A DNA stretch of 28,897 nucleotides, taken from a virus. The translations under genes were made by a program, and so were the position numbers. The stretch covers positions 1 through 28,897 of IMG/VR virus record IMGVR_UViG_3300015360_000153; one strand, given 5' to 3'. The first letter of the stretch is position 1. Each line of letters begins with the position of its first letter. This document shows, piece after piece, positions 2,101 to 28,364 of the stretch. The notes under the pieces were generated by a model. The model did no database searches, was not told the DNA's origin, and worked only from the letters and a program-made list of their open reading frames with translations.

Positions 2101-2114
2101 GATATAGTTACTTT
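2101..2114 (-). promoter_or_regulatory. Start-motif copy lacking its ATG, before the polymerase gene
   Basis: Minus strand AAAGTAACTATATC matches the recurring AAAGTAACTATATG except for the last base. The TAA inside it is the stop codon of the upstream 108-residue gene. The polymerase ATG follows 9 bases after the motif. This copy shows that the sequence can be kept when it does not supply the start codon. Confidence 0.6.
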
Positions 2115-2434
2115 TTGCTGTGCTGTAGGACGTAGACTTTGAAAAGCTCTTCCAGGATAAGAGTTATTTTTCCTTCCGGCGATGCAAGAAGATAATCAGG
2201 GTGGGTCAAAAGATCGTATGTGATTCGATCCGGTGTTCTGGGTTGTGTTGTTGCACCTTCTTCTTTTCTGGATTCCAGAATATCCTTGATAATAGCAGTG
2301 CCAGTCTTAGTAGGTTCTGACTCGTTAACTCTGACAGTCGTGGTGTCATAGTTGGTAGGTTCCTGCTTGGTAGGTTCCTGCTTGGTAGGTTCCTGCTTGG
2401 TAGGTTCCTTGGATTTTTTATTGAACTGTAGCAT
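2108..2434 (-). CDS. Small protein with EPTKQ repeats, function unknown
   Basis: A 108-residue protein. I place the start at 2434 because the minus strand there reads GGACAACTATATG, a variant of the phage start motif; a longer reading from 2485 would run through a terminator stem. The N-terminus is a lysine-rich MLQFNKKSK followed by three exact copies and a partial copy of a 15-bp unit coding EPTKQ. The rest is acidic/basic and helical (ILEELFKVYVLQHSKK at the end) and has no motif I recognise. Its TAA stop lies inside the motif that precedes the DNA polymerase gene, so the two are tightly linked. Possibly a replication accessory protein with a flexible N-terminal tail (inference from position). 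Confidence 0.7.
   Translation of the reverse strand: MLQFNKKSKEPTKQEPTKQEPTKQEPTNYDTTTVRVNESEPTKTGTAIIKDILESRKEEGATTQPRTPDRITYDLLTHPDYLLASPEGKITLILEELFKVYVLQHSKK
2354..2410. repeat. 15-bp tandem repeat inside the EPTKQ gene
   Basis: Three exact tandem copies of GGTAGGTTCCTGCTT (2354-2398) followed by a partial fourth (2399-2410). The period is a multiple of three, so the repeat expands the protein in units of EPTKQ. Perfect identity between copies points to recent slippage or conversion. Confidence 0.9.
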
Positions 2435-2465
2435 ATAGTTGTCCTTGTTAATTTTCACCGAAAAG

Positions 2466-2514: not shown

Positions 2515-3525
2515 TTATGCCTTGGCCCCATCCTTGGCTTGCTTGACCGCAAGCTTGACTTCATCCTTGGCCATCTTACCTAGTAGATTGACCTCATTTA
2601 AGATGTCCTTGTAGGTAATGTTCCCGCCCTTGATATGGCCGATGATGGATTGCAGGATGGCAATGGATTGCTTGTCAATATCCGTTTCACCTTGCAGAGA
2701 CTCCGAAGCTGCCTGCAACTTTTCAACTCTTGCAATCAGCTTCCGCCCTTCCTTCAGCTCCTGCTTTTCTTCTTCCCGGCGAATCTTGGCCGCAACTTCG
2801 GCATCGCTCTCTTCCTTTTTCTTTTCCACAACTTCTTTGACTTCGCGGGATTTGACTTTAGCCCCTTCGCCGTTCGCCTCTTCCGCTTTGAGAACTGCCT
2901 TGGTCACTTTTTCTTCCACCTTCAGCCGGACTTCTTCCATGATGGGGTTCTTCTTTCCGGCTTTGACTTCATAGACCAGTTCAATGACCAGGGAAGCAGC
3001 AATTTTGTTGCGCCGGACATATCGCTTGGTAAGTTCGGTTTGCGCCCAAAGCTCTTCCAGGTTGTAGATGGCATTGAGGGTTTTTCCCACCCTTGCGGCA
3101 ACTTCCTTGCGTTTGATGACAATTTCCTTGGCGTCATCAATGCCAAAGAATTCCCGGCTGATGACTTCGGACTCTTCCAACATGGTGAGAGGCTTGCCGT
3201 TGTTCAGGGTGATAAGTTCCAGGTTTCTTTCACTGTCGCTCAAACCGTCTTCTTCAGCGTAGAGGGGAAAGTCCAAGAGGCTTTTCCCGTTGTTCGTTTT
3301 TTCGTTGCCTTTTTCGATCAGTTCCAGAACAGCGCGGAGCCGTCTGTGTCCCTGACTGCCAAGCAATGCCGTTCCTGCTTTTTCATCGATGATTGCTGGC
3401 ATTGGCACTTTCACGCCCTCTGCCAAGATTTGATCTTTGAATTCTGCCATGTCGCCAAATTCGGCGCGTGTGTTGAACCTTTCGCGGACTGTGATTTTAC
3501 GTGGATCTATGCTTACTATTTTCAT
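2515..3525 (-). CDS. ParB-like nuclease/CTPase-fold protein with HTH and charged C-terminus
   Basis: A 336-residue protein. The N-terminal third carries the ParB-family signature GSQGHRRLRA at residues 56-65 (compare the GERR box that binds nucleotide in ParB). A helix-turn-helix-like stretch EVAARVGKTLNAIYNLEELW follows near residues 139-158. From about residue 190 the protein is a long Lys/Glu-rich, probably coiled-coil segment, ending in a helical tail (LAVKQAKDGAKA). ParB-fold proteins bind and slide on DNA; in phages they serve partition, replication or transcription control, and which applies here is unknown. No ParA gene is visible. The start ATG follows an A-rich leader with no phage start motif. 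A 17-bp palindrome lies 39 bases upstream and may be its operator. Confidence 0.8.
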   Translation of the reverse strand: MKIVSIDPRKITVRERFNTRAEFGDMAEFKDQILAEGVKVPMPAIIDEKAGTALLGSQGHRRLRAVLELIEKGNEKTNNGKSLLDFPLYAEEDGLSDSERNLELITLNNGKPLTMLEESEVISREFFGIDDAKEIVIKRKEVAARVGKTLNAIYNLEELWAQTELTKRYVRRNKIAASLVIELVYEVKAGKKNPIMEEVRLKVEEKVTKAVLKAEEANGEGAKVKSREVKEVVEKKKEESDAEVAAKIRREEEKQELKEGRKLIARVEKLQAASESLQGETDIDKQSIAILQSIIGHIKGGNITYKDILNEVNLLGKMAKDEVKLAVKQAKDGAKA

Positions 3526-3563
3526 TTTTATTTTTTCTTTCTTTTTGTTGGTTCTTAGGTTCT

Positions 3564-3591
3564 TGAATAGTAACTATTCAGTCACTATTCA
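3564..3591. promoter_or_regulatory. 17-bp palindrome plus extra half-site, putative operator or parS-like site
   Basis: TGAATAGTAACTATTCA (3564-3580) is a perfect palindrome around a central A, and a third half-site ACTATTCA follows at 3584-3591 after GTC. It lies between the RHH gene and the ParB-like gene, so either protein could bind it. The centre AGTAACTAT is also the core of the phage start motif, but no ATG follows, and here the palindrome is the main feature. Confidence 0.5.
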
Positions 3592-3629: not shown

Positions 3630-3854
3630 TTATTTCCAGAGTTTTTGGGAATCACCCTTAATTGCTTCCAGGCCTAGCTCCATAAGCCTTTCGATGACCT
3701 CCGTTTTTGCATGGGGCTTGGCAGGCTGGCTATTTTTTGAGATGTAATTAGCCATGGACTGGCTAAAACGGCACGTGATGGAAACCTTCAATTCTTCCGG
3801 CTTTTTTGGAGGACGGCCCCTTGTTTTTCTGACTTCTTTGGTGTCTGTGCTCAT
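3630..3854 (-). CDS. Ribbon-helix-helix DNA-binding protein with AT-hook-like N-terminus
   Basis: A 74-residue protein starting at the ATG at 3854, 13 bases after the stop of the upstream gene; a longer ORF reading would run back into that gene. Residues 12-19, RGRPPKKP, match an AT-hook. The segment KVSITCRFS is a predicted beta strand, followed by helix SMANYISKNS and helix TEVIERLMELGLEAI. That order and length fit the MetJ/Arc/CopG ribbon-helix-helix fold, which binds DNA as a dimer through the strand pair. The start context GCAATATTATG resembles the GCAACTATATG form of the start motif. It is probably a phage transcription regulator; its target is not known. Confidence 0.7.
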   Translation of the reverse strand: MSTDTKEVRKTRGRPPKKPEELKVSITCRFSQSMANYISKNSQPAKPHAKTEVIERLMELGLEAIKGDSQKLWK

Positions 3855-3867
3855 AATATTGCAATTA

Positions 3868-4917
3868 TTACAGGAATTTGTGCCAATCGTCAATAAATTC
3901 CGTTGGTTGTACTTCGTTATTCTTATATAGGGGGGACCAAAAATCATGGGAATGATCATTTAGCCAAAAGTCCTTTTTCGATTCTCCTGGACTATAAATT
4001 TGAAAAACTCTGTGAAGTGCAACCCACTCCATTGCACGGTCAGCCGCTTTTTGGTCAAAGGTGTACGTTGTTGCCAGTTGCATGCTTCCTTTTTCTAACA
4101 AACCGTTAGGAAGTGATTCCTTGGTTTGCCAGATATGTTGTTGGGCGGAGGCCATATTGAGTACAGGCCAACTGATGCCGCGCAAGTTTGCGTCATATTC
4201 GCCGAAGTATCTGGGACATAGATCAACTATTTCCGAATACATTGGATCTACTCTATGCGCCAAGCCGCCCATGGGGTAGAGGTAGACCCAAAAATGGCAT
4301 GAAGGAATATTCAAATCCTTAAATCCGTACTTATTATCCCCGAAGTTTTCATAATGCGTCAGCGTCGTTAGCTCTCCATCGTCCTCTTCCGGTGTCACCA
4401 TGGGAAAACGAACAGAACCCGCACCCAGGCAACAGCGGCGGTTGAAGCTTTTCAGGATGGCCATGGTATGGAGTGCGGAAAATAACGATCCTCCAGGAGT
4501 GTGCATGGCCACATTCGGAAATTTGTATGATTCAATAAACGTGTTTTTTAGGTTGATTAGGTGCAAAATATCCGTTTTAAGTATGTCCTTCTTCTCTTCC
4601 TTCTTCTCTTCTTTCTTCTCTTTCTTCTCTTCTTCGCGGAATCCACCCATCTGATTGTTAAGCCTTGCCCGTATCAGCCAATTAGCGGGGCCGGACGTGT
4701 AAGGGCAAATTTCCACGATTAAATCAGGAAATTCTTCCATAAGGTGCTTGGCAACTCCGTCTGCCTGTGCAATGTCCCCGGCTGGTACTTCAAAATCCCT
4801 TGGCCGTATCATGCTAGTTAATACATTGTCGTTAGGGATTCCTCCTATGCAGGCATGATGCAAATCCCTGCGAAGTGCTAAAACCAACTGTCTTAGTTTT
4901 TCATTTACAAAGGTCAT
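3868..4917 (-). CDS. 349-residue protein of unknown function, next to the AAA+/VWA pair
   Basis: Not recognised. The start at 4917 is fixed by a perfect copy of the start motif (4915-4928), and that motif contains the TAA of the VWA-like gene. Residues 94-110 form an almost pure Glu/Lys tract, a likely flexible or helical linker. It divides an N-terminal domain of about 90 residues (with CPYTSGPANWLIRARL) from a C-terminal domain of about 240 residues rich in aromatic residues, His and Cys (HTPGGSLFSALHTM, RRCCLGAGSVRFP, SCHFWVYLYPMGG). The gene sits third after the AAA+ ATPase and VWA-like genes, so it could be their substrate or a third subunit (inference). Confidence 0.75.
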   Translation of the reverse strand: MTFVNEKLRQLVLALRRDLHHACIGGIPNDNVLTSMIRPRDFEVPAGDIAQADGVAKHLMEEFPDLIVEICPYTSGPANWLIRARLNNQMGGFREEEKKEKKEEKKEEKKDILKTDILHLINLKNTFIESYKFPNVAMHTPGGSLFSALHTMAILKSFNRRCCLGAGSVRFPMVTPEEDDGELTTLTHYENFGDNKYGFKDLNIPSCHFWVYLYPMGGLAHRVDPMYSEIVDLCPRYFGEYDANLRGISWPVLNMASAQQHIWQTKESLPNGLLEKGSMQLATTYTFDQKAADRAMEWVALHRVFQIYSPGESKKDFWLNDHSHDFWSPLYKNNEVQPTEFIDDWHKFL

Positions 4918-4921
4918 ATAG

Positions 4922-5833
4922 TTACTTTTTGTAGAGCGTCACTCCAAATTTTTCGGCTTCTTCCCGTATCCCTTCCAGTCCCATTCGGCTACTTCCAGAA
5001 AAAACAATATCCCCTGTTGCGTTTAAAAGTGGATCAATGCATGGCCGCATCTGATGATACCCGCCTGCCCAGGCACTAAGCCCTATTTTATCCCTTACTG
5101 ACCACATCAGACGGCGGACAAAGGCAGTGTTGGCCAAGACGTATGCCATTGCAGGCAGATTTAGGGGTTCTTGATGTCTTTTTACCAAAATTCCTGTGGT
5201 GTTCGCAAACATGTAGGCTGATCCGTTTTGACCCGCCAAGCTTGAGATGTAGACCAGGACTTCACAACGGATGTTTGCCGCCTCTAACTTGTCAATAAGC
5301 ACCGCTAAAGCAGCTCCACGGCTGAATAGATATTCCGGCGTCATTCTGGATGATTGCCCTATGTCGGCAACCACGCGAATGAACTTAGGCTGATTACCCC
5401 TTGCCTTGCGCTTCCTTCTCCAACATTCCGGCTCTTCCTCTACATATCTTCCCATGTTCAAACTTCTTCCAACAAGGTCGTGATAAATATGAGTAGTAGT
5501 GCCTACTAGTTGATTGTTATACTCCGCAAAATAGGTTAGGAGCTTTTCCACGCCATTTTTCCAGCCGTATTTTATATTTTTATTTGCCTGATCCCAGGAA
5601 TCCATGGCAGAATGGCCCTCAAAAACTCTTGAGTAGTCCGCTGTTCTGGCCGTCTTTCCACTATCGCTTGGAAAGAGGTCAACACAAGACTCCAAGGGAG
5701 CGTCTTGGATATACTTCTGGAAACTAAACAAACTTGGAAAAAGCAAGGATGTTTTTTTCCATTGCCCTACGCGATGTTCCAAATCTTCCGCCTTATCCCC
5801 GTAAAAGAACCGGCTATTTATTTTCCAATTCAT
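4922..5833 (-). CDS. VWA-like (CobT-type) partner of the AAA+ ATPase
   Basis: A 303-residue protein that overlaps the AAA+ ATPase stop by ATGA at 5830-5833. Around residue 155 it has a hydrophobic strand ending in an acidic residue, VVADIGQSSRMTP, which fits the metal-site pattern D-x-S/G-x-S of von Willebrand A domains (D157, G159, S161). It is followed by a helix and a second strand CEVLVYISS, as in the Rossmann-like VWA fold. MoxR/CobS-type ATPases are typically encoded beside VWA proteins, and such pairs also occur in some other podoviruses. Predicted role: adaptor that brings a target to the ATPase. The VWA assignment rests on one motif plus context, so it is moderate. A divergent family cannot be excluded. 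Confidence 0.6.
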   Translation of the reverse strand: MNWKINSRFFYGDKAEDLEHRVGQWKKTSLLFPSLFSFQKYIQDAPLESCVDLFPSDSGKTARTADYSRVFEGHSAMDSWDQANKNIKYGWKNGVEKLLTYFAEYNNQLVGTTTHIYHDLVGRSLNMGRYVEEEPECWRRKRKARGNQPKFIRVVADIGQSSRMTPEYLFSRGAALAVLIDKLEAANIRCEVLVYISSLAGQNGSAYMFANTTGILVKRHQEPLNLPAMAYVLANTAFVRRLMWSVRDKIGLSAWAGGYHQMRPCIDPLLNATGDIVFSGSSRMGLEGIREEAEKFGVTLYKK

Positions 5834-7068
5834 GGTTGTTTGCCTCTTGAAAGAAAGGCGGATATTTGAGTTGATGGTGCTGAATTTTTACGGTTTTCTT
5901 TGTCGCCCTCTAGCTGTTCTTTCGTTTCCTCTGAACAGCCTTTCCAGACTACTAGATCCTTGATATGTTCCCACCCTATACCCACAAGAGATAATTTATA
6001 TCCATGAATTGTTGCACGTGGACTAACAAGATGCCGGATTTGCATCTCTTCAGCGTTTGCCCGATAGTGCCGGACGTGATTCAAAATTTCCTGTGGTTCT
6101 GGAATTCCTCCGAAGTCCAAGGGAAGTTCTTTTTGTGCTATTGAAATACCCAAAAAGGAAGCTTCCAAAGCTTCGTCAATGGGCCATTCGATAAATGCAA
6201 ACCTGTCAAGTGTTGCGGCGTCAAGCTGATTCCTTCCTACATACATACGGTTTGAACCTGTACCATAAGTGTTACCGCCAGCCACAAAAATAAAGTCCTT
6301 GTGTTTCTTCACCATTTTATCGGGAAAGCCCATAATATTATTGGCTAGTAGAGCGTTAATGATAGTTAGGACATTGGCGTTTGCGGCGTCAACTTCATCC
6401 ATGAGATAGACGCCCCCATGTTCGTAAGCGGTTCTTAGAAACGTAGGGCAATAGTCCCCGCTTCCCGTCATGTAGCCGATTAAATCGCTCTTGGAAGTTT
6501 CTTCTCCCACACTTGACATATAAAAGGGCAAGCCAAAAGCTTCCGCCAGTTTTTCGCCAGCCGTTGTTTTTCCGCCCCCGGCTGGCCCGACAAGCATGGT
6601 AACAATTCGCGCTTCGCCTGCTACTTTTAGAAGTAGGGGAAATTTATAGTGTTGAATTCCCATGTCCAAGGTTTTTGGACTATCGCCTATCTGCACAACT
6701 GTGGGCGAGGGCTGAACGATGTTTTCCAGGGCAAGGACAACTTTTTCATGGACTTCATGGGCAAGTTCATTCTGCCTTTTGAAAAGAGCAGCAAAATGCA
6801 TGTCAGATGATTTGCTTGTTTCATCTGCTATCATTTTTTTGGCCTGTGCCAGGGTTAGCGGCCCTAGGCTTACAGGTGCTTCAGGTTTGTAGGCATCGTC
6901 ACAGGAAGCCAAAATGGTATTGCACTCCGTCATCGTGAGCAGGGAACAGTCTGCAATATCATCTACACCAAATGCGTCCAAGACTGCCTTTGGAATTTTG
7001 TTGTTGTGCTTTAGGCTGTTTATTAGTGACCGTTTTTCATGGATCGTTTCAGCTTTTTTGGATGTCAT
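5830..7068 (-). CDS. CobS/MoxR-like AAA+ ATPase
   Basis: A 412-residue protein starting at 7068 with the motif GAAAGCAACTATATG (a longer reading from 7179 would run through a terminator hairpin). The N-terminal 150 residues are helical. The AAA+ core shows Walker A GPAGGGKTT (161-169), Walker B GVYLMDEVDAAN (219-230), sensor 1 FVAGGNT near 265, and an arginine-finger region LDAATLDRF near 290. The acidic residues after Walker B and the overall pattern fit the CobS/MoxR branch, which remodels or inserts cofactors into partner proteins together with a VWA protein. The next gene is such a candidate partner and overlaps by ATGA. In a phage the target is unknown; assembly chaperone, metal-centre insertion or takeover of a host protein are all open. 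Confidence 0.85.
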   Translation of the reverse strand: MTSKKAETIHEKRSLINSLKHNNKIPKAVLDAFGVDDIADCSLLTMTECNTILASCDDAYKPEAPVSLGPLTLAQAKKMIADETSKSSDMHFAALFKRQNELAHEVHEKVVLALENIVQPSPTVVQIGDSPKTLDMGIQHYKFPLLLKVAGEARIVTMLVGPAGGGKTTAGEKLAEAFGLPFYMSSVGEETSKSDLIGYMTGSGDYCPTFLRTAYEHGGVYLMDEVDAANANVLTIINALLANNIMGFPDKMVKKHKDFIFVAGGNTYGTGSNRMYVGRNQLDAATLDRFAFIEWPIDEALEASFLGISIAQKELPLDFGGIPEPQEILNHVRHYRANAEEMQIRHLVSPRATIHGYKLSLVGIGWEHIKDLVVWKGCSEETKEQLEGDKENRKNSAPSTQISAFLSRGKQP

Positions 7069-7115
7069 ATAGTTGCTTTCTGTTGGTTCTTTAAGTTCTT
7101 TTTCAGCTCTGACAG

Positions 7116-7133: not shown

Positions 7134-7166
7134 AAAAAGCAGATACGTGTAAAGTATCTGCTTTTT
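7134..7166 (-). terminator. Strong hairpin terminator, possibly an attenuator of the ATPase operon
   Basis: Perfect 13-bp arms AAAAAGCAGATAC (7134-7146) and GTATCTGCTTTTT (7154-7166) with a 7-base loop. The A/T runs at both ends make it usable in either direction. It lies downstream of the 76-residue gene and of a pair of TATAAT boxes, and upstream of the ATPase start at 7068. Confidence 0.8.
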
Positions 7167-7190
7167 GCCTACCTGTCAAAGGTTTGTTGT

Positions 7191-7218
7191 AGTATTATAG
7201 TATTATAAGAGGCCTCTT
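7191..7218 (-). promoter_or_regulatory. Tandem TATAAT boxes with an adjoining palindrome
   Basis: On the minus strand TATAAT occurs at 7207-7202 and again at 7199-7194, made by an 8-bp direct repeat AGTATTAT on the plus strand. Immediately upstream, and overlapping by one base (7207), is the perfect palindrome AAGAGGCCTCTT (7207-7218). No clear -35 box is spaced correctly, so this may be an activator-dependent or palindrome-regulated promoter. It would transcribe through the terminator at 7134-7166 into the ATPase operon. Confidence 0.4.
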
Positions 7219-7279
7219 TCCAGGTATCTTATGATGCCGGACTGTGGGTTAAGACGCTTTCTAATCTTTAGGAAGGTGC

Positions 7280-7510
7280 TCACTTTGTCTTTTTCCTGAC
7301 CAGCTTTGCGCCATTGATGAAGCAGCCCCTTGCCAAAACAAGGAATTCACTCCTTGTTTCGGTGTATTCCTTTTTAGTGACGCCGTTTGAGATCACGTAA
7401 ACAACGTGATTTTCGCTAATCATCGTAACGGTTGCCGTTAGCTTTTTGAGTTTGCCTTTGGCTTTCCCGTGGAAGGCATCTCCTACTTCTGGTTTGTATT
7501 CTGTTGTCAT
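7280..7510 (-). CDS. 76-residue basic protein of unknown function
   Basis: Begins MTTEYKPEVGDAFHGKAKGK and ends in RKKTK. It is lysine-rich, with alternating hydrophobic stretches (ATVTMISENHVVYVIS) that suggest a small beta-rich, SH3-like or nucleic-acid-binding fold (inference from composition only). The start codon follows an A/C-rich leader ending AAAGAACCAAAGAACC, without the ACTATATG motif and without a Shine-Dalgarno sequence. It lies in the early arm between the 141-residue gene and the ATPase operon, and is separated from the latter by a terminator. Confidence 0.6.
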   Translation of the reverse strand: MTTEYKPEVGDAFHGKAKGKLKKLTATVTMISENHVVYVISNGVTKKEYTETRSEFLVLARGCFINGAKLVRKKTK

Positions 7511-7555
7511 GGTTCTTTGGTTCTTTCTTTTTGTTATTGGTTTGTTGGTTATTGG

Positions 7556-7981
7556 TCAAATCCACTGGTCACAGTTTATGATGTCTTGCCGTGTTGCACC
7601 CATGGCAATAGCTTTTGTAACTAGTGGATCGGCATAGTGTAACCAAGAACATTTTTCTTCTAGAGTGTAAGGGTAATAACCGGAAAGACTAAGACATTGC
7701 TTGTGCATTAGCTCCCTTCCAGTCTTGAAAAGGCTTTCTGCATCTAACATGTGGATTATCTTAGGCAAAATTTCCCTTGTGAAAAGCTCCTTGTTCTTTT
7801 CGTAAATATTTTTGTTGCGTGTCGCATGTCTTGCTTCCGCGGACTTTCCACCTTTTCCCCATGCTGGTCTATACCTTAAATATTTGATAGGACGGGGGAA
7901 GGTGTCCAATAGAGTTTCGCAAGGCGCTGTTGCGGGTATCATCTGATTCTCCCAGTCCTGGAACGTGTAAGTGTGTTTCAT
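7556..7981 (-). CDS. 141-residue protein of unknown function
   Basis: The start at 7981 is given by GAAAGCAACTATATG. The protein has basic tracts (RPAWGKGGKSAEARHATRNKN), several aromatic residues and a C-terminal part with two cysteines (KQCLSLSGYY, EEKCSWLHY). There is no transmembrane segment and no family I recognise. The gene is preceded by a leader of seven 7-bp repeats (8002-8050). Being second in the leftward transcript from the putative early promoter, it is probably an early host-takeover or accessory protein (inference from position). Confidence 0.65.
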   Translation of the reverse strand: MKHTYTFQDWENQMIPATAPCETLLDTFPRPIKYLRYRPAWGKGGKSAEARHATRNKNIYEKNKELFTREILPKIIHMLDAESLFKTGRELMHKQCLSLSGYYPYTLEEKCSWLHYADPLVTKAIAMGATRQDIINCDQWI

Positions 7982-8001
7982 ATAGTTGCTTTCTTTCTTT
8001 T

Positions 8002-8050
8002 TGTTGGTTATTGGTTATCGGTTATTGGTTATTGGTTATTGGTTATTGGT
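8002..8050. repeat. Seven tandem 7-bp repeats in a gene leader
   Basis: Read on the minus strand, seven units of ACCAATA in a row, with one ACCGATA and a last ACCAACA. They fill the gap between the stop of the 91-residue gene and the start motif of the 141-residue gene. The period is not a multiple of three, so it is not coding. Related A/C-rich stretches precede the genes starting at 3525, 7068, 7510 and 8327. Confidence 0.9.
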
Positions 8051-8051: not shown

Positions 8052-8327
8052 TTAGACCCAGAAGTTTCCGGTTTCAAAAACCTTTTCGCAAATGTCCTGG
8101 ATCACGTCATGCGTTTCGATTGTACAGTTGCCCGTGACACGTGTTGAATATGTCGTATCAGTGCCGCTGAAATCAATTTCAGCGTCTGGATATTCTGCCA
8201 ATATTGCAGTTTCATATTCATTTTCTAGGGATTTTTTTAATACGGCAAACTGTTCATCCGTATAGAGTGACGCTGGATCAATGCTGTCTGCATTGTGGCT
8301 AATTGTGATTTGCATTGTCATTTTCAT
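8052..8327 (-). CDS. 91-residue acidic protein of unknown function, first gene of the left arm
   Basis: Begins MKMTMQITISHNADSIDP; the start at 8327 is fixed by AAAAAGTAACTATATG. The sequence is acidic (EYPDAEIDFSGTD) and ends in GNFWV. It is likely a mixed alpha/beta soluble protein with no signal peptide, and I recognise no family. It is the first gene downstream of the putative leftward promoter at 8386-8414, which suits a small early protein, possibly one that acts on the host (inference). Confidence 0.65.
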   Translation of the reverse strand: MKMTMQITISHNADSIDPASLYTDEQFAVLKKSLENEYETAILAEYPDAEIDFSGTDTTYSTRVTGNCTIETHDVIQDICEKVFETGNFWV

Positions 8328-8383
8328 ATAGTTACTTTTTCTTTTTGGTTCTTTGTGGAATGCTTAATTGCCGTCCACGATTA

Positions 8384-8490
8384 ATACAATAATCCAAGGG
8401 CCGGAAACTGTCAAGAATTATTATCATACAATAATTAAATAATGAGTTAGCATATAACGTGCCATGATTGCATCAATCGATTTATTGTAT
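8384..8490. repeat. Iterated ATACAATAA sequences
   Basis: ATACAATAAT occurs at 8384-8393 and 8426-8435, 42 bases apart, and ATACAATAA occurs inverted at 8482-8490. The first copy overlaps the -10 box of the leftward promoter and the second lies just upstream of its -35 box. Plausible as operator sites or origin iterons. The A/T-rich composition lowers confidence. Confidence 0.4.
8386..8414 (-). promoter_or_regulatory. Putative sigma70-type promoter for the left (early) arm
   Basis: On the minus strand, a perfect -35 TTGACA (8414-8409), a 17-base spacer, then -10 TATTGT (8391-8386, four of six consensus bases). It faces the 91-residue gene whose start is about 50 bases beyond the expected start site. 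Two copies of ATACAATAAT overlap or flank it, as regulator sites often do. Confidence 0.6.
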
Positions 8491-8566
8491 GACCAAAAGG
8501 TATTTATCATCACACAAGGTTTTTTTTACGTTGTTATAAAATCATATCCACCCCATGTTATGTCCT

Positions 8567-8652
8567 TCAGCATCAGCATGTTATATCCAAGAGCTTCCAT
8601 CTGATAATTAGCTACTATGGAAGATTATTTGATGTAAGTTGCTGATGCTGAA
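8567..8652. other. Long imperfect hairpin, possible structured RNA or replication element
   Basis: TTCAGCATCAGC (8567-8578) and GCTGATGCTGAA (8641-8652) are perfect 12-base complements. Inside, ATGTTATATC can pair with GATGTAAGTT over most positions, and CTTCCAT (8595-8601) pairs with ATGGAAG (8618-8624), closing a 16-base loop. The whole folds as one interrupted stem of about 86 bases. No T-run follows, so it is not a simple terminator. Confidence 0.45.
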
Positions 8653-8872
8653 TAGTTTGAAGAGGTAAAGATGCTTTTTAGGATTCAGATATGTCTAACG
8701 TAATTTGAAAGGGTGCTCGGAGCTAACTGCATTTTGCACTGTTCATAGTTCAGGTGACTTAAGTATGGTTTTAGGGTAATATATGTAGTAAGTTGCTTGC
8801 TTACATGGAGTTATATCAAAATCTGGCATATTTTGGCTTCAGGTGGGAGGTCTTGGATGTAAGTTGCTGATG
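8631..8872. repeat. 17-bp direct repeat with degenerate relatives
   Basis: GATGTAAGTTGCTGATG is exact at 8631-8647 and 8856-8872. Related words occur at 8784-8797 (TGTAGTAAGTTGCT), 9183-9195 (GATGTAAGTTTGT) and 9264-9275 (TTATGTAAGTAG). All are on the same strand in the divergent region. Confidence 0.7.
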
Positions 8873-9239
8873 GTAAGTACTATAAGAGGTACTGGATGTT
8901 TTTCATTTTTCCTAACTTGAGGACTTTCCCTAGGCATCTTACTTTTGGCATTTTTGTAAAAGTCTTTACATAAATGGTCATTTTTTGGCTTAAATAATGT
9001 TGCCGGGATGTCTTGGCAATGACGGTTTGCGCTAACTATTTGCACCCGGGATTTCTTTGGGTTGATACCCTGGCAAGTGTGGGAGCGTCTCCTGTCGTTC
9101 AAAATTCCGTAAACATGCAATATTCTGGGCCACTCTCTCACCTGTCATCATACCCTAACGTATCACTAGCCAACATGTAAATGATGTAAGTTTGTGCAAT
9201 GCAACGACATAGCTTAGGATACTTCGCACAATATTAGTT

Positions 9240-9286
9240 GTATCAACTTTGTATCATAAAACTTATGTAAGTAGCACAGTATCAAC
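9240..9286. repeat. GTATCA(AC) repeats upstream of the late arm
   Basis: GTATCAAC at 9240-9247, GTATCATA at 9251-9258 and GTATCAAC at 9279-9286, with a further GTATCA at 9160-9165. Short, but clustered just before the packaging genes. Possible binding sites of a regulator. Confidence 0.3.
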
Positions 9287-9331
9287 ACGTTAGGACCCCT
9301 ACGCCCCTATATTATACACAGTCAGGCATGA

Positions 9332-9387
9332 GACGGGGGGGAGGGGGGATTCCAGGTTCGACTATTATATTCCCATCCCACCCCGTC
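9332..9387. other. G-run/C-run stem-loop upstream of the terminase genes
   Basis: GACGGGG (9332-9338) pairs with CCCCGTC (9381-9387). GGG, A and GGG then continue to pair with the C-runs through two single-base bulges, making about 14 pairs and a 26-base loop. The left arm itself is G7-A-G6. It is by far the most G/C-biased spot of the intergenic region. It could form a very stable RNA hairpin or a G-quadruplex. Confidence 0.5.
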
Positions 9388-9437
9388 CGTGGAAGAACCA
9401 TTCCTTTATTGTAGTAAGCGTAATATTGCAATAACCC

Positions 9438-9450
9438 GTATAGTTACTTT
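9438..9450 (-). promoter_or_regulatory. Minus-strand copy of the phage motif without ATG
   Basis: Minus strand AAAGTAACTATAC, facing left inside the divergent region and away from the terminase genes. No start codon is adjacent. The nearest leftward ATG, at 9401, opens a 29-codon ORF to 9312 that runs through the C-rich stem; I do not trust that ORF as a gene. Confidence 0.45.
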
Positions 9451-9487
9451 ATTGACTAAAAAACGTAATATTCCTATTATTCCTTTC

Positions 9488-9907
9488 ATGGCTATAGAAA
9501 CACGTCCGGCAATACCAGCAAAAGTTGCTTCCCGCAGGGAAATGACCGAACTGTTAAAGCACACTCTGTACAATGCCCGGTATGACCCTGTACTAGAGCT
9601 TGTGGAAATTGCACAAGATCCAGCTACGGACGTATCTATGCGTGTGGACATAGCCATGTGTCTGACTGGCTTCGTCTATCCAAAGCTTAAGAGTGTGGAC
9701 TTGGAGCACAGCACTGAAGGGGGCTTGGCCATCCAGCTCATAAAGTTCACGGATGCCCCCCCGCAGAAAAAAGGAGAACCCCAAAAAACAATCGACATCA
9801 CGCCAAAAGGCCAGAAGGCTCTTGGGCAATCAGTCCCAGAACCTGAGCCTCTGGGACAGGGCGGAATACCCAACATGCCAATAGAAGATGATTTAGGAGA
9901 GACATGA
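9488..9907 (+). CDS. Probable terminase small subunit
   Basis: A 139-residue protein from the ATG at 9488; an in-frame extension back to 9389 is A/T-rich, hydrophobic and crosses the divergent regulatory region, so I reject it. The N-terminal half is helical (ASRREMTELLKHTLYNARYD, VSMRVDIAMCLTGFVYPKL), and the C-terminal third is Pro/Gly-rich and acidic. It lies immediately upstream of the large terminase and overlaps it by ATGA. Small terminases recognise phage DNA and form a ring that regulates the large subunit. The assignment rests on position, size and composition, not on a diagnostic motif. Start context is poor: no Shine-Dalgarno sequence and no start motif. Confidence 0.65.
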   Translation: MAIETRPAIPAKVASRREMTELLKHTLYNARYDPVLELVEIAQDPATDVSMRVDIAMCLTGFVYPKLKSVDLEHSTEGGLAIQLIKFTDAPPQKKGEPQKTIDITPKGQKALGQSVPEPEPLGQGGIPNMPIEDDLGET

Positions 9908-12121: not shown

Positions 12122-12148
12122 GCTTACTTTTTTCCGTAAAGCAACTAT

Positions 12149-16801: not shown

Positions 16802-16825
16802 CATTTTCAACCAGAAAGTAACTAT

Positions 16826-20414: not shown

Positions 20415-20425
20415 AAAGTTACTAT

Positions 20426-20924: not shown

Positions 20925-23219
20925 ATGCCAATCAAAACTTTCAGAAGCCAAGAGGGGTCAATACGGACAGGATCGACAGGGACTCAGGCAAGTGCCTCTG
21001 CCTTTCAGCAAGGTGCGGGGCCGGAAGCAACCGCCCGAATTCAGCAGGGTGTTGGAAAACTGATTGATAATCTTGGCGATGTCCTGGAAGATCAGGAGAA
21101 TGTTTGGGCAACGGATAGCAATATCCAGATGCAGAAGGACATTGCTGTTAAACAAAAAGAATGGCAGGCCACAGGAGCTAATTCTTCACAGGTGGCGGCA
21201 GAGTTTAAATCTTACACGGAAAAGGTTTATAAATCCGCTCCTACTCCACGCGCCGGAAATTCTTTTCTTGCATCCGCGCAACCCATGAGCGTCTCATTGT
21301 TTCGCGGTGCTTTGTCGAATGAGGCCAGAAAAAGAACATCGGACTACGTTGGGCAGTCCCAGAAAAATATTGACACCATAAACGACATGGTCAAAGAAGA
21401 TCCAACATCTTTGGCGCAAGCTCTTAATCTTATCGTGGACTCCACGCAAACCTATGCGAAAAATACGCCAGTTTTGAACCCTGTGTTTGAGCAACAGTCC
21501 AACACAGCCCAGCAGGTTGCTGTTGTTACGGCGGTGGATTCGGCTTTGTCTAAGGACGCTTTCATGGCCAGGATGATTTCCGCGCCGGGACATCGGCCAG
21601 GCGACGGAATATTTGACGATTTTCACAACGAATCTCCTGTGACTGTCACAGAGGACAGTCCTCTGTCTTTGTTAGACCCCAACATAGCGCAAGCCAAGGC
21701 GGAACAGATTAACAAAGCGGTAGGAACTCAACGGGCGGCTACGCAACAGCACTGGACAGACTTAAGAAAAGCAAATCTCAAATCTGTTTCTGAAACCGGA
21801 ATAATGGCGGATGGTTATTCGGTGGATAGGGATGCAGCTTTCAACTCCAAGACAGGCGAGAAAGCCGTTGCTTTAAAAATGAAGCTGAACGATCAACTTC
21901 AGGAAGCAAAGGAAGCCTACAGTCTTAAATCCGCCCTTTTTGGCGTTAACCATGCAGATGCGGAAAGCAGGCTGGAAGCAGCCAAGCCGATAGCTGGTGA
22001 TCCTAATTTTGATAACAAGCTACGAACATACAAGGCAGGTAAAAAAGCCCTTGATGTCATGCGTAAGTCTCTGGCAAAAGATTCTTACGAATATACCATG
22101 CAAAGCCCCGTTGTATTGGGGCATCAGGCAAGGGCAAATAGTTACTTTACAGAAGCGCAAGAAGCCCAGAACCCACAAGCCAAAGCCCGTCTCATGTCGC
22201 AGGGACAGGAAGAGTTAAGCTTTGGGCTTAACGCATCGATAGACATTCAGACCAGGGCAGGGGTTCCCCCAGCTCAAATTTCCGTCATGTCAAAGCAGAT
22301 GGCTTCGGACTACGCAACCACGATCAGGGAGGGACTGTCAAAAGAAGGTCTTTCGGCTCTGGCCAATGTGGAGCAAGCATATGGGCAACACGCAGACAAG
22401 GCCTTTTCAGATATGCAGCGTCTACCATCTGACGGGGCCAAGTTAGAGCCTAAGTACATGGCAGTTGCGGCACACTTGGACAACCCAGCCGTGGCCAAGG
22501 TTCTTTTGGATTCAATGAAGTTGGATACCACAAAAAAGGGTGATAAAGAATCACTGACTAATTCCCGTCTGGATGCCAGTACGGTGACTAGCATCTCAAA
22601 AGCAACCTTTAACGATCCTATTTTTCGCAGTTACATGGGAGCTACAGCAGGATCTTCGGGAAACACAGAGTATGCAGTTGGTGTGAGGGAAGCCATTAAT
22701 TCCTACGCCAAGCATTTGTTCGCTACGGCGGCACCGGGAAGCGATACGCCGGAGGCGGCGGCGGCACAAGCTTCCAAGGTTATCATTGGTTCTCTGTATG
22801 CTTTTGATACATCCCCTAACGGTGCGGAGTACGCCATACCGAGAAAGGGTTTGTCAGACGAAGAGGTGGAACTTACACAGGAAGGGCTTAAGCTTATTCA
22901 CAGCGACATGGAAGAGGGGGATGCGTTTTCTGCGGACATTGTAAAAGACAACCCCAATGTTCCAGATAGTTACTTTCTGAACGGCTTGCGCCAAAAAGCG
23001 TATTGGGTTAATTCCCCTGACAACTCTGGCGTATTCATGTATGTCAACAGCCCCGAAGCCATGGCGTTGGGAATGGCAGGGCTACCACTCAAACGAAAAG
23101 ATGGGGGAAGAGTTTTTGTCAGTTTTGACACGGCGCGGGAAAAAGGAAAGTCGAAGCCCAGCGGGTTCATGATGTTCCTTTTGCCATCCATAGGTATGCC
23201 GGGAGGAATGGCACCATGA
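20925..23219 (+). CDS. Internal virion protein, T7 gp15-like
   Basis: A 764-residue protein, about the length of T7 gp15 (747). Soluble, predominantly helical, Ala/Lys/Gln-rich, with N-terminal SASAFQQGAGPEATARIQQGVGKLIDNLGD. It starts one base after the gp14-like stop. T7 gp15 forms part of the tube spanning the periplasm during ejection. The identity is by length, helical composition and order rather than a short motif. The last part (RVFVSFDTAREKGKSKPSGFMMF) is beta-like. Confidence 0.75.
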   Translation: MPIKTFRSQEGSIRTGSTGTQASASAFQQGAGPEATARIQQGVGKLIDNLGDVLEDQENVWATDSNIQMQKDIAVKQKEWQATGANSSQVAAEFKSYTEKVYKSAPTPRAGNSFLASAQPMSVSLFRGALSNEARKRTSDYVGQSQKNIDTINDMVKEDPTSLAQALNLIVDSTQTYAKNTPVLNPVFEQQSNTAQQVAVVTAVDSALSKDAFMARMISAPGHRPGDGIFDDFHNESPVTVTEDSPLSLLDPNIAQAKAEQINKAVGTQRAATQQHWTDLRKANLKSVSETGIMADGYSVDRDAAFNSKTGEKAVALKMKLNDQLQEAKEAYSLKSALFGVNHADAESRLEAAKPIAGDPNFDNKLRTYKAGKKALDVMRKSLAKDSYEYTMQSPVVLGHQARANSYFTEAQEAQNPQAKARLMSQGQEELSFGLNASIDIQTRAGVPPAQISVMSKQMASDYATTIREGLSKEGLSALANVEQAYGQHADKAFSDMQRLPSDGAKLEPKYMAVAAHLDNPAVAKVLLDSMKLDTTKKGDKESLTNSRLDASTVTSISKATFNDPIFRSYMGATAGSSGNTEYAVGVREAINSYAKHLFATAAPGSDTPEAAAAQASKVIIGSLYAFDTSPNGAEYAIPRKGLSDEEVELTQEGLKLIHSDMEEGDAFSADIVKDNPNVPDSYFLNGLRQKAYWVNSPDNSGVFMYVNSPEAMALGMAGLPLKRKDGGRVFVSFDTAREKGKSKPSGFMMFLLPSIGMPGGMAP

Positions 23220-24715
23220 TAAACATGTGGCCACAGAAGGAAGCCGAGACAATGGATTTTGAAACGAGGCAAGTTTCAGAAACTCCTTTCAGTGAATCTT
23301 TGGATGCATCGTGGGATTCTGCACTGGACAAGACGCCATCCAAGACTTTCATGGACTGGTGGGACAAGGGAGACGCAAGAGAAGACACTAAGTTGTTATC
23401 GATTGCTGAAGCAAATGAAAAATACGGTTCGGAGAATCTGTACTTCACTGACCCCATTTATGAGGGAGAAGCAAACTGGATGTCCAAAAACAAAGCGAAA
23501 GAAGCCAAGCGGGAAATGGCCCTCGCGTATTCTTCAGGTTCCGGCGTGCAATCTTTCACCAACGGAGCGGCGGGGCTTTTGGCCAATGTCATCGATCCGC
23601 TGAACATCGCGGCTTCTTTCATTCCTGTGGCCGGACAAATAAGGGCTGGTTCTTTGGCCGTTGGTATGCGTTCGGTTTATGCGGCGAGAGCGGCAAGAGG
23701 CGCGGTCGAAGGGTTTGTGGGACAAATGGTGGTAGAACCCATCGTTTATTTTGGCTCTCAGGATCAATCAGAAAATTACACCGTGGAAGATTCCATGGTG
23801 AACATGGCTCTTGCTCCTGTTATGGGAGCGGGTTTTCATCTTGGCTTTGGGGCCATCGGTGACGCTTTGGCCAAGTGGAAAGGAAAAGGCACCCCACAGG
23901 GGTTTTTAAAAGATGGTGAAGCCTTAATGCGCGACACGTTAGCACCAGATACACAGGTAGCCGCCAACGCTGCGGCTTATTCGCAGGTTATGGAAGAGGG
24001 AGCAAGAATTACCCCCGAACAAGTGGTGTCTGTGGACAAGCGTTTTGTGCAGCAGGAAATTACAGAAAAATTTGATTCACAGTATAGGGTGGACAAAGAA
24101 AGCCCCACTATCAGCGTCAAAAAGGGCAAAGACTTTCAAATGGAAGGAGTTTATGATGTTGTTATAAAAGGTTCGGACGGACAGGAAACAACTCACGGCA
24201 TTTTTCGTAACCCCGATACAAAGTATTGGATGGAAGCACCTGTGGAAGGTGTTAAGGATTGGAGTGCAAAAGATAACATTCTTTCCACAACCACACGAAA
24301 AGAAGCTATTAATGCGTTAGCTGAAAGAAGTTACGGAAAGAAAATAAACGGGCCGTGGAAAGATGACAGTCTTTTAAGATCAAAGTTCAACGATGAAGTT
24401 GAAAAAACAATCAAAGATAGAACAGAGAAATATCGGCAGGAGGCTTTGAAGCCACTTGTGCGGACGGAACCTGTAGCAAGAATTTCCGAGACGATAAAGG
24501 ATTCTCCTGATCCTGTGACCTTGGACGAATCAAGAAAGTTTTTAGAAGAAGATGCCCTTGCCATTGAAAAAGATTTCATGGCAAGGGCAACCCCTGAACA
24601 GATGGAGTTTTTTAAAAGTGAAATGTCGAACCACAGGGAACTTGAGGTCGTTACGGCAAAAAAGAACAAGGGTGTAAAAGCTGCTTTGGATTGCCTTCTC
24701 ACGAACTCCCTATAA
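23216..24715 (+). CDS. Internal virion protein with hydrophobic segments
   Basis: A 499-residue protein overlapping the gp15-like gene by ATGA, with GGGAGG at a normal distance. Residues about 110-160 are Gly/Ala-rich and hydrophobic (SFTNGAAGLLANVIDPLNIAASFIPVAG), with a further stretch near 190, likely membrane-active. The C-terminal half is charged and helical. I see no lytic transglycosylase signature such as the T7 gp16 N-terminus. With the next gene (876 residues) it occupies the place of T7 gp16, so the gp16 function may be divided over two proteins (inference). Confidence 0.65.
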   Translation: MINMWPQKEAETMDFETRQVSETPFSESLDASWDSALDKTPSKTFMDWWDKGDAREDTKLLSIAEANEKYGSENLYFTDPIYEGEANWMSKNKAKEAKREMALAYSSGSGVQSFTNGAAGLLANVIDPLNIAASFIPVAGQIRAGSLAVGMRSVYAARAARGAVEGFVGQMVVEPIVYFGSQDQSENYTVEDSMVNMALAPVMGAGFHLGFGAIGDALAKWKGKGTPQGFLKDGEALMRDTLAPDTQVAANAAAYSQVMEEGARITPEQVVSVDKRFVQQEITEKFDSQYRVDKESPTISVKKGKDFQMEGVYDVVIKGSDGQETTHGIFRNPDTKYWMEAPVEGVKDWSAKDNILSTTTRKEAINALAERSYGKKINGPWKDDSLLRSKFNDEVEKTIKDRTEKYRQEALKPLVRTEPVARISETIKDSPDPVTLDESRKFLEEDALAIEKDFMARATPEQMEFFKSEMSNHRELEVVTAKKNKGVKAALDCLLTNSL

Positions 24716-24724
24716 AGTAGCTAT

Positions 24725-27355
24725 ATGGCATCACCATTGGACAAATGTATCAAGCTTGTTAAAGCTGCTTCGGAGGGAATCGTATCAGATTCTCAAGCTG
24801 AACAGCTTCTAAAGAATCTAAAAGACATAGACGACAACGGAAAGTTGTCAGGACTTGATGAAGCAGCAAGGAAGGCACTTCTAAAAAAGTCATCCCAGGA
24901 CATACAGGACTTCAGCGAACTTAAGCTTATCATTGAGCGAAGAAACAAGGTTCTGGAAGCAGCCAAGCTTAGGGATACAACTGATTTTATTTTTCGGTTC
25001 AAGGAGGCATCATCAGGCTTGAAGGCTTGGCTTGGCGGAATTGAATCTCCAATACAAGGCTCGCGTTCCTCTGTTGATGCCAGAGTAGAAGCTATCAAGG
25101 CAGAGTTGATTTCTGAATTTGAGGGCGAACTTCGTTCGGCTGGTGTCATGGATTTTCTGGCCAAGGGATTTGATGAAGACGGTTTGGCCATGGAGTTGGC
25201 CACGATGAAAACGAAGGACTATGTTCCATCCAAGAATCCTTCAGTGGTAAAAGCTGCCAAAGTAATCAAGAACTTGCAGGGCAAGATACGTGATCGAATG
25301 AACAGGGCGGGTGCTTGGATACAGGAGCTTGACGATTATACAGTGAAGAGTACACACGATGCCGGACGTATTGTGGGCGAAGGAAAAGATGCATGGATAG
25401 CTTTCATGAAGGGTGCGTTGAACCCTTCGACATATGACGGAGTAGCTCCTGACAAATTTCTGGCGTCCGCTTACGATGCGGTGGTTACTGGATACCGCAA
25501 ATCAAGGCCCAGCGAAACCGGAGCTTTTGGCATCGTGGAAAACAACTATGGCCCCTACCAGAATATTGCTGCCAGGTTGGGAGAACATAAGGTTTTTATA
25601 TTCAAGTCACCTGAAGCGGGGTTGGCATATAACAAGAAGTTCGGCAAAGGAACGCTAAGAGAAACTTTCATGACAACCATTGACAGCGCATCGCGTGACA
25701 TTGGTTTGATGGAAAAAATGACAGTTAAACCAGAAGAATTTTTTAACAAGGTGATGCGCGAAGTGGAGACAGGCATACGCAACAAGTTCGCTAAAGACGA
25801 AGTTGGATTGATTGCTGCCAAAAAAGATTTGGACAACTACAAGAACGAAGCCAAAAACATTTTTAAAACTTTGTCGGGGCATACCCGGCTTGTGGACAGT
25901 GTTGGTGTGGCCAATGTTATGCAGACAGTACGGGCCGTGCAGGTAATGGCAAAACTCGGTGGATCAACACTTTCGGCAACCCTGGACACTCAGACGATTA
26001 ATTTTGAAATGCGCTATCAGGGTGGGAGGTTCGTGGAAAGTATCGTTCAGCCCTTCAAGTCAATCCTGAATTTTGCCACGGCATCGGAAGCGAAGAAAGA
26101 AGTCTGGGGCATGACGGGCGCGATGGCCAACGGGGTTCTTCGAGACATGCAAAGTATCCTATCGGCCACGGACACTTTTAACGGAAAGACAGCTAAAGCG
26201 GTGGAGTTATTTTTTCGTTTCAATTTGAATTCCTTTTGGGACAACGCCCAGCGTTCAGGTATGGCGGAATGGATGGCGCAAAGGTTGGCTTCCTATGCGG
26301 ATAACAAATGGGACTTGGCTACATTGGCCAAGGAAAACCCAGATGCCGCAAGAGTGTTGGGTTTGTACAACATAGACGCGCCACGGTGGGAAGCTTTGCG
26401 CGGGGCGGTCACAGACACAGATGCAGGTTACAGGGTGCTGACAGGCAGGCAGGTTGATTCAATACCTGACGAATCAATAGCAGAAATAGTAAAAAGCCAG
26501 GGTAAAAAAGTAACGGAGAGTAGCATAATCAGGGAACGCGATGAGCTTAGAACAGCGGTCTATATGTACTATCAGGATAGATCATATCATGGAGTGTTCA
26601 AACCAACCGCCATCGAAACGTCCATGATTACTAGGGGAACAAAAAAGGGCAACTTTGAAGGGGAACTTTTTCGGGCAATAGGCCAGTTCAAAAGCTATCC
26701 GCTTACGATGATCCAGAAGGGTTTCTTGCGCGAGTATCAGGGCAGGGGGGAAAGCTGGCCCATGGGCGCGGCAAGGGCGGCATTGTTCAGTTTTCAGCTT
26801 GGCGCGGTAGGTGCGCTAGTGTATCAATCCAAGCAGGTGCTGGCGGGAAAAAATGCATTGGAGTGGAACGATCCAAAGTTATTCGCGGCAGGCATGATGC
26901 AGGGCGGTGGGTTGGGTTTATACGGCGATTTTATCATCGGAGACTATTCCCGTTTTGGCCGTTCGGCTTTGGCGTCTCTTGCGGGGCCATCATTGGGACA
27001 GGTTGACAATCTATTTCAAATTAAAGGCGATGTGGTTGACGCAACAGGAGGCAAGGGGGATAAGACAAGGAACAGGGTTGCTGCGGGTATGGTTCGGGTG
27101 GCGCGGGAAAACGCACCCTTCGCAAATCTTTTTTATGCCAAGCCCTTCGTGGATAATTTAGTCTGGAATCAGCTTGAAGAATCTTTAAATCCCGGCTACC
27201 TTAAGCGGAAAGAAACAACTTTGAAAAGAAACACAGGACAAGAATTTAGATTACCTCCATCCACCTTCGTCAAGCCGTCCAGCGATCCTGTGGAGTTCAT
27301 GGGAAATATGCCGGAACTCGCGGCAAAGACATTGGAATCTGCCAACATAAAGTAA
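24725..27355 (+). CDS. Large internal virion protein, possibly gp16-like
   Basis: An 876-residue protein that starts from the variant motif AAAGTAGCTATATG nine bases after the previous stop. Mainly helical and charged, with a later region containing hydrophobic patches (GAARAALFSFQLGAVGALVYQSK near 680-710 and GGGLGLYGDFIIGDYSRFGRSALASLAGPS after it) typical of the C-terminal membrane-inserting parts of ejected proteins. The stop TAA lies within the motif that starts the tail-fibre gene. The position between internal core genes and fibre matches T7 gp16, but it is much shorter (T7: about 1318). Confidence 0.65.
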   Translation: MASPLDKCIKLVKAASEGIVSDSQAEQLLKNLKDIDDNGKLSGLDEAARKALLKKSSQDIQDFSELKLIIERRNKVLEAAKLRDTTDFIFRFKEASSGLKAWLGGIESPIQGSRSSVDARVEAIKAELISEFEGELRSAGVMDFLAKGFDEDGLAMELATMKTKDYVPSKNPSVVKAAKVIKNLQGKIRDRMNRAGAWIQELDDYTVKSTHDAGRIVGEGKDAWIAFMKGALNPSTYDGVAPDKFLASAYDAVVTGYRKSRPSETGAFGIVENNYGPYQNIAARLGEHKVFIFKSPEAGLAYNKKFGKGTLRETFMTTIDSASRDIGLMEKMTVKPEEFFNKVMREVETGIRNKFAKDEVGLIAAKKDLDNYKNEAKNIFKTLSGHTRLVDSVGVANVMQTVRAVQVMAKLGGSTLSATLDTQTINFEMRYQGGRFVESIVQPFKSILNFATASEAKKEVWGMTGAMANGVLRDMQSILSATDTFNGKTAKAVELFFRFNLNSFWDNAQRSGMAEWMAQRLASYADNKWDLATLAKENPDAARVLGLYNIDAPRWEALRGAVTDTDAGYRVLTGRQVDSIPDESIAEIVKSQGKKVTESSIIRERDELRTAVYMYYQDRSYHGVFKPTAIETSMITRGTKKGNFEGELFRAIGQFKSYPLTMIQKGFLREYQGRGESWPMGAARAALFSFQLGAVGALVYQSKQVLAGKNALEWNDPKLFAAGMMQGGGLGLYGDFIIGDYSRFGRSALASLAGPSLGQVDNLFQIKGDVVDATGGKGDKTRNRVAAGMVRVARENAPFANLFYAKPFVDNLVWNQLEESLNPGYLKRKETTLKRNTGQEFRLPPSTFVKPSSDPVEFMGNMPELAAKTLESANIK

Positions 27356-27359
27356 CTAT

Positions 27360-28364
27360 ATGCCAATTACCACGCCATACGAACTAACCAGATACACAGG
27401 AAACGGCGTCACCCTTGCCTTTCCTACGGTGTTTGTTTTTATTGACCTTACGGACATTATTGTTACCCGTACGGTTATCGCAACCGACATCAGCACAGTT
27501 CTTGCTATAACAACAAACTACACTGTTACGGGAGGCAACAACAGCAACGGAACAGTGTCCTTGCTTGTGGCACCCACAGCAGGGGAGCGGATAACGATAG
27601 AGCGAAACATTCCCCTGACACAGGAGCTTGCCATCGTCGAGAATGATGCTTTTCCATCGGATTCGGTACAGGATGCTTTTGACAAATCCACACTGCTTCT
27701 TCAACAGGTTTCGGAAAAACAGAGTAGAGCTTTGACTGTTCCTGCTTCCTCTCTTCTTAGTCCCGCTGTATTTCTACAAACTTTCATTACTGCTGCTGCC
27801 ACGGCCACGGCTCAGGCTGTTATTGCCACGGCGCAGGCTGTTATTGCCACGGCGCAGAAGGTTATTGCCACGGATCAAGCCGCCATTGCCACGGCTCAGG
27901 CTGTTATTGCCACTAGTGGAGTTATGAATATTAACGGGCTGACGGAGAGCGCTGCTGACGGTGATTCGGATTGGATTCCGTTCTTCGATGTGTCGGCTTC
28001 CGTCAATCGCAAAACACTTATTCAAGATTTGTTGCGAAGCCTGGCGGCGTTGGGTTCGATCAACACGAATCAGACTATTGATCTGGCATCACGAGCACTC
28101 AGTCATCTGGTGACAGCCACGCTAACGGGGCCAGTGATATTCACCCTAAGCAATCCGCGCGAGGGGCAAATGGTGACACTGCGTGCGACGGCCAGCGGAG
28201 GTGCGAGGAATTTTAGTTTCCTCAACAACACGGATTATCTGGTGCAAAATGATGAGTATGCACCCGCGACAGGTGAAAGTATTCCAAGCGGACAGACTTG
28301 GATATATACGTGTCTTTACATGGGCGGTATTTGGAACATTAATCGCGGCAAGAATTACGCCTGA
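27360..28364 (+). CDS. Tail fibre / fibre adaptor with T7-type N-terminal domain
   Basis: A 334-residue protein started by AAAGTAACTATATG. The first 150 residues, with RYTGNGVTLAFPTVFVF, NYTVTGG...GTVSLLVAPTAGERITIERNIP and VQDAFDKSTLLLQQ, match the tail-binding domain of T7 gp17-type fibres. Then comes a heptad array (ATAQAVI) of five 21-bp units, probably a trimeric coiled coil, then a beta domain ending TWIYTCLYMGGIWNINRGKNYA. It is too short to be a complete receptor-binding fibre. The following gene overlaps by TGATG and is lectin-like, so this protein is probably the anchor. Confidence 0.88.
   Translation: MPITTPYELTRYTGNGVTLAFPTVFVFIDLTDIIVTRTVIATDISTVLAITTNYTVTGGNNSNGTVSLLVAPTAGERITIERNIPLTQELAIVENDAFPSDSVQDAFDKSTLLLQQVSEKQSRALTVPASSLLSPAVFLQTFITAAATATAQAVIATAQAVIATAQKVIATDQAAIATAQAVIATSGVMNINGLTESAADGDSDWIPFFDVSASVNRKTLIQDLLRSLAALGSINTNQTIDLASRALSHLVTATLTGPVIFTLSNPREGQMVTLRATASGGARNFSFLNNTDYLVQNDEYAPATGESIPSGQTWIYTCLYMGGIWNINRGKNYA
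27804..27914. repeat. Five 21-bp tandem repeats in the fibre gene
   Basis: Units of GCCACGGCTCAGGCTGTTATT from 27804 to 27908, then the start of a sixth. Units 1 and 5 are identical, unit 2 differs by one base, and units 3 and 4 are more diverged. Each codes one heptad (AQAVIAT register), so the repeat sets the length of a coiled-coil shaft. Confidence 0.92.

Follow-up and report, generated by a model that had tools for sequence, protein, structure and literature searches.

Which step of gene expression, if any, is served by a short sequence that runs into the start codons of genes on both arms of a phage genome? The IMG/VR record IMGVR_UViG_3300015360_000153, all 28,897 bases of which form the window analyzed here, is an incomplete podovirus genome from a T7-like phage, a virus of bacteria. 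Genes of the left arm, read leftward, specify a family-A DNA polymerase (polA), a ParB-like protein, an AAA ATPase and its DUF7192 partner, and small proteins. On the right arm, where transcription runs rightward, lie the genes for TerL, portal, capsid, tail tubular, and internal virion proteins, along with a tail fiber.

The repeated word at gene starts

The initial annotation described a 14-base motif ending in the ATG of eleven genes. This unit was misdrawn, as the conserved part ends before the ATG; the enriched unit is AAAGYAACTAT(A), 11–12 letters, with about 22 copies in the window. The pattern A[AT]AGYNRCTAT gave 26 matches in 21 places, where a second-order Markov (trinucleotide) model predicts 0.37, and the 14-mer at three or fewer mismatches gave 21 matches versus 2.0 in shuffles. 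De novo enumeration of 9-mers in the window returned the same motif as the top enriched word. Ten matches of the pattern finish exactly in a start ATG, and an eleventh start-coupled copy is diverged.

All eleven copies originally listed are present and each ends in the ATG of an open reading frame, with one coordinate amended (13843–13856 rather than 13842). On the minus strand these are the diverged AGGACAACTATATG at 2432–2445, which has an AAGGA Shine-Dalgarno inside; AAAGTAACTATATG at 4915–4928, whose TAA also serves as stop codon for the gene upstream; AAAGCAACTATATG at 7066–7079 (AAA ATPase gene) and 7979–7992; and AAAGTAACTATATG at 8325–8338, at the left arm's first gene. On the plus strand, AAAGCAACTATATG is found at 12138–12151 (portal gene), ATAGCAACTATATG at 13843–13856, AAAGTAACTATATG at 16815–16828 (tail tubular A gene), AAAGTTACTATATG at 20415–20428 (internal virion protein), AAAGTAGCTATATG at 24714–24727 (virion structural protein), and AAAGTAACTATATG at 27349–27362 (tail fiber), where the TAA is again the upstream stop codon. 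PHROG profile alignments independently support the starts at 16826, 20426, 24725, and 27360, and favor the start at 13854 against a longer ORF. The zero register is exact at 11 genes (the ten close matches and 2434), including those with upstream gaps of 27 to at least 300 nt.

The claim that motif genes have no Shine-Dalgarno sequence held for ten of the eleven, with duplex energies of −0.1 to −1.5 kcal/mol, and failed for the 2434 gene, where AAGGA lies seven nt before the ATG (−5.1 kcal/mol). Mean pairing was −1.2 kcal/mol for motif genes versus −3.6 kcal/mol for other genes (P = 0.045). Pairing of the motif itself with 16S rRNA was computed and is negligible, in agreement with the initial annotation, and an Rfam search gave no match. 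Conserved promoter hexamers were looked for in the flanks of the aligned copies and none were seen. The flanks of the copies at 7066 and 16815 have eight further bases in common (P = 0.035 versus column shuffles). These two start modules (7061–7082 and 16812–16833), one from an early ATPase gene and the other from a late tail gene, are 95% identical over 22 nt, a stretch that extends past the motif.

Copies away from start codons

The motif had also been thought to sit always at an ATG with zero spacing. Five of the 12 exact copies of AAAGYAACTAT have no following ATG (2101–2114, 9437–9450, 18121–18134, 22135–22148, and 22963–22976), and with variants counted about 11 of 22 sites are away from start codons, so that roughly half of the sites were missing from the original list, along with the near-palindrome and even spacing described below. 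In the non-start copies the ATG part is replaced by ATC, ACG, ACC, TTG, CTG, or ACA, which indicates that the motif is independent of the start codon. In the alignment, position 12 is A in 8 of 11 non-start copies.

Four of these places are outside genes. AAAGTAACTATATC (2101–2114, minus) is not start-coupled, its position 12 being 11 nt from the polA ATG downstream, and ATAGTAACTATACA (15344–15357, plus) lies 18 nt before the ATG of the major capsid gene, which has its own Shine-Dalgarno. Between the arms, AAAGTAACTATACG (9437–9450, minus) faces no gene start and is one base from the TTGACT −35-like hexamer of a rightward promoter. The tandem pair GAATAGTGACT and GAATAGTTACTATTC (3565–3590, minus) consists of palindromic sites directly downstream of the sigma-70-like promoter of the ParB-like gene (minus strand, −35 at 3623 and −10 ending at 3595). 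Seven further copies are within genes. AAAGTGACTATATA (576–589, plus) and AAAGTTACTATATC (1149–1162, plus), both in polA, are antisense, as are AAAGCAACTATACC (18121–18134), AAAGTAACTATTTG (22135–22148), and AAAGTAACTATCTG (22963–22976) on the minus strand; ATAGCTACTAT (11406–11416) and ATAGCGACTAT (12870–12880, portal gene) are palindromic. All five asymmetric in-gene copies are therefore antisense.

Antisense in-gene matches number seven, compared with 0.5 in synonymous-codon shuffles (P < 0.001), and exact antisense copies number three, compared with 0.12. A weight matrix was built from the start copies, as the initial annotation proposed, and scanned blind to the in-gene copies; it recovered 6 in-gene copies versus 1.0 expected, and 4 versus 0.4. 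Since a signal read only in mRNA could not explain the antisense excess, the element acts as DNA, making it a control site at the DNA level and not a new ribosome signal. It is a real, unusual, phage-specific DNA element with partial precedents.

Promoter and regulator-site readings

Two close rivals, which are not exclusive and could both apply, account for a DNA-level site. We tentatively favor the first, with somewhat less than even confidence: the element AAAGYAACTATA may serve as a phage-specific promoter, with transcription starting at or next to the A of position 12 to give leaderless or short-leader mRNAs. Where this A is the A of the ATG, transcription beginning at or beside it would yield a leaderless mRNA, while for capsid and polA the same promoter would leave leaders of about 18 and 11 nt. 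In-gene copies would be antisense or internal promoters, and phage AR9 provides a precedent for both (PMC5312081). The recognizer could be a phage polymerase, a sigma factor, or a protein that binds the host polymerase, none of which was seen in the incomplete genome. We infer both the transcription start at the element and its recognition by a phage factor.

Several features point to a promoter. The exact zero register is kept even in roomy gaps, which leaderless mRNA demands and other DNA sites do not; Shine-Dalgarno pairing is missing from motif genes compared with other genes; between the capsid copy and its gene there is a leader that has its own Shine-Dalgarno; and the retained A at position 12 is as expected for an initiating nucleotide. 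All four strong, intergenic, sense-oriented intrinsic terminators are also upstream of motif genes, 23–135 nt from the ATG, an association that is not statistically strong alone (about 0.06 by hand-calculated hypergeometric). Two are on the minus strand, at 2465–2492 (−17.6 kcal/mol, T tract starting 30 nt before the motif ATG) and 7137–7163 (−12.5 kcal/mol, T tract starting 68 nt before), and two are on the plus strand, at 15202–15236 (about −20, 107 nt upstream of the copy that precedes the capsid gene) and 16765–16798 (−22, with about 16 nt separating it from the copy at 16815). Between this last terminator and the downstream gene there is no sigma-70 promoter match and no room for one.

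Other features argue against a promoter, which does not explain the near-palindrome, the even spacing, or the five antisense in-gene copies. The motif is similar to T7 and SP6 promoters in its ACTATA end, its many copies, and its use at middle and late genes, but T7-type promoters have a conserved AT-rich block at −17 to −13 and a +1 G, and it has neither; in the T7 record, annotated promoters are separated from genes by leaders. A search for single-subunit RNA polymerases (PF00940), in which T7 served as the positive control, detected none in the window fragment, from an incomplete genome, or among 22 kin records. Leaderless promoters with a TANNNT −10 element, known from Deinococcus-Thermus and other bacteria, do fuse a promoter element to the start (PMC12340547, PMC3160421). 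Here, however, TANNNT is about 12 bp before the start in only 2 of 10 close start copies and off −12 in most copies, and the 11–12 bp motif instead covers −11 to +1. A parallel with the phiKZ TATG promoter was rejected, as G14 is not retained in non-start copies and the phiKZ transcription start is a G.

Two promoter-like sequences of other types were also observed. At 9452–9490, a sigma-70-like promoter (TTGACT-17-TATTAT) has its −10 end 7 bases upstream of the ATG at 9488; leaderless expression, here from a host-type promoter, is thus probable for the first gene of the right arm as well. On the minus strand at 7137–7222, a promoter-like TGGAAA-17-TATAAT has a strong terminator about 30 nt downstream and would give a very short RNA.

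The second reading, possible but more doubtful, is that a phage DNA-binding regulator, ParB-like or other, binds the element, which would be used genome-wide in the manner of L5 stoperators or KorB operators. Protein bound at gene boundaries would block or control transcription, with the in-gene copies filling the gaps. The core A-W-A-G-Y-N-R-C-T-A-T is near-palindromic with a free center, and five copies are perfect palindromes. The approximately 22 sites are evenly spaced across both arms (CV 0.49), with P values of 0.0006 versus uniform placement, 0.0015 versus random gene starts, and 0.003 with the start sites fixed. The excess of in-gene copies over synonymous shuffles also fits a regulator site, as do the tandem palindromic sites just downstream of the ParB-like gene's promoter and the intergenic copy adjoining the −35 of the rightward promoter. 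The ParB-like DNA-binding protein (2515–3525, minus; phrog_1033, E = 3e-16) is a candidate motif binder. Pfam and PDB searches with this protein gave no match, and its single-sequence AlphaFold model is poor (pLDDT 46) and does not resolve the fold; the corresponding model of the small 3630–3854 protein was not usable either. KorB of plasmid RK2 is a ParB-family protein with many short palindromic operators and long-range repression (PMC11790492). In contrast to the element here, none of those operators is described as start-codon-coupled, and the phage protein, ParB-like by its PHROG profile, is at most a putative KorB counterpart.

A regulator site also does not require an exact ATG register in roomy gaps, and the 30 stoperator sites of D29 have no fixed start-codon register. 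In addition, the sites overwrite the ribosome-binding region of ten genes. Because only a leaderless promoter requires the exact register, we place the promoter slightly ahead of the regulator site. One 12-bp near-palindrome could combine transcription start, regulator site, and start codon, evenly tiled on both strands, such that a single phage protein sets gene 5' boundaries and primes leaderless translation, but we consider this improbable.

The initial annotation had offered either a promoter giving leaderless mRNA or a translation-initiation signal; the promoter survives as our lead. An RNA-level signal used in place of the Shine-Dalgarno, similar to a role suggested for the Cluster K repeats discussed below, would suit the exact ATG coupling and the ten genes lacking Shine-Dalgarno pairing. 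It is disfavored by the antisense in-gene copies, which exceed expectation, by the copies 11 nt before polA and 18 nt before a capsid gene having its own Shine-Dalgarno, and by the intergenic copy that faces no start; about half of all copies are off start codons, and a purely translational role is unlikely. The flank shared by the copies at 7066 and 16815 would suit a start module spread by recombination that now does no more than provide a workable start. This is very improbable, as the other copies share no flank, and neither antisense in-gene copies nor even spacing would be expected.

Known repeats, relatives, and other features

The initial annotation knew of no system fusing such a sequence to start codons. 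This overlooked Cluster K Start-Associated Sequences (SAS) and L5 stoperators as precedents, though each of them differs in a tested feature. SAS of Cluster K mycobacteriophages, the closest description, are 13-bp asymmetric repeats with 11–19 copies per genome and an unknown mechanism; they lie beside ATG starts in one orientation, sometimes including the upstream stop codon (PMC3203893). They contain AGGAG, are placed 3–7 bp (up to 9 bp) ahead of the start, occur only in the non-structural half, and are seldom found in genes (PMC3203893). Both are start-linked repeats, but here ten copies have no Shine-Dalgarno pairing, the spacing is zero, both arms are used, and about 11 of 22 sites are off starts. 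L5-type (Cluster A) stoperators comprise more than 20 asymmetric 13-mers genome-wide, in short intergenic spaces and promoters, are bound by the phage repressor, and follow transcription in orientation (PMC9283540). The roughly 22 scattered sites here, 15 of them intergenic or at starts, are comparable, and no repressor was identified in the incomplete genome. In contrast to stoperators, all five asymmetric in-gene copies are antisense while the intergenic ones are oriented with the genes, and the start register is fixed, which is not seen in D29. Cluster O mycobacteriophages have 17-bp palindromic repeats with more than 30 symmetric sites, intergenic and in genes; these phages also encode a ParB-like protein and show no obvious sign of being temperate (PMC4351075). 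Site placement and a ParB-like protein are thus shared, but the Cluster O repeats are perfectly symmetric and have no start-codon link.

Phage repeats linked to gene starts (Cluster K SAS, T1-like repeats, Cluster O palindromes) are long known but have no proven function. To these the present case adds, from a T7-like podovirus, a version that keeps exact register and lacks a Shine-Dalgarno, and in which non-start copies separate DNA-level from RNA-level function. A leaderless promoter, if true, would offer an orthogonal signal for expression in a compact format of about 12 bp; a regulator site would represent a genome-wide silencing system that overlaps start codons, outside the actinobacteriophages.

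Kin were searched in viral contigs with portal, tail, polA, ParB-like, TerL, and AAA ATPase proteins, in bacterial genomes with capsid, and in phage records with portal, capsid, polA, and ParB-like proteins. The nearest, MW202510 (capsid 55%, portal 38%) and the HTVC010P-type pelagiphages, are only distantly related. The initial annotation had suggested looking for the motif at starts in relatives, and none of those scanned (MW202510, HTVC010P, Baldr, BcepC6B, 30 TerL kin, and others) carries it or any other start-fused word. The exact 14-mer occurs in at least about 117 stretches of viral contigs; the loci examined look like chance, with at most 5 matches, at a locus rich in AT. No left-end overlap that could extend the fragment was found. 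MW202510 has its own enriched word, AGTCCCTGT, with 28 matches at one or fewer mismatches versus 4.9 expected, scattered within genes on both strands and not at starts.

Several further features were noted in the window. The 1.1-kb noncoding divergent region at 8328–9436 contains four TGTAAGTTGCT-type repeats, a G-rich run, and a 25-nt inverted repeat (8566–8590/8628–8652), and is a possible origin or control region. Left-arm genes have in common A/C-rich leaders (AACCAATAACC repeats, AACAAAAAGAAAG) with no Shine-Dalgarno, on the minus strand at 3525–3560, 7510–7556, 7981–8050, and 8327–8360. Short in-frame tandem repeats are present at 14276–14392 (9-bp, Ala-Pro-Val type) and 2337–2413 (15-bp, Gln-Glu-Pro-Thr-Lys type).
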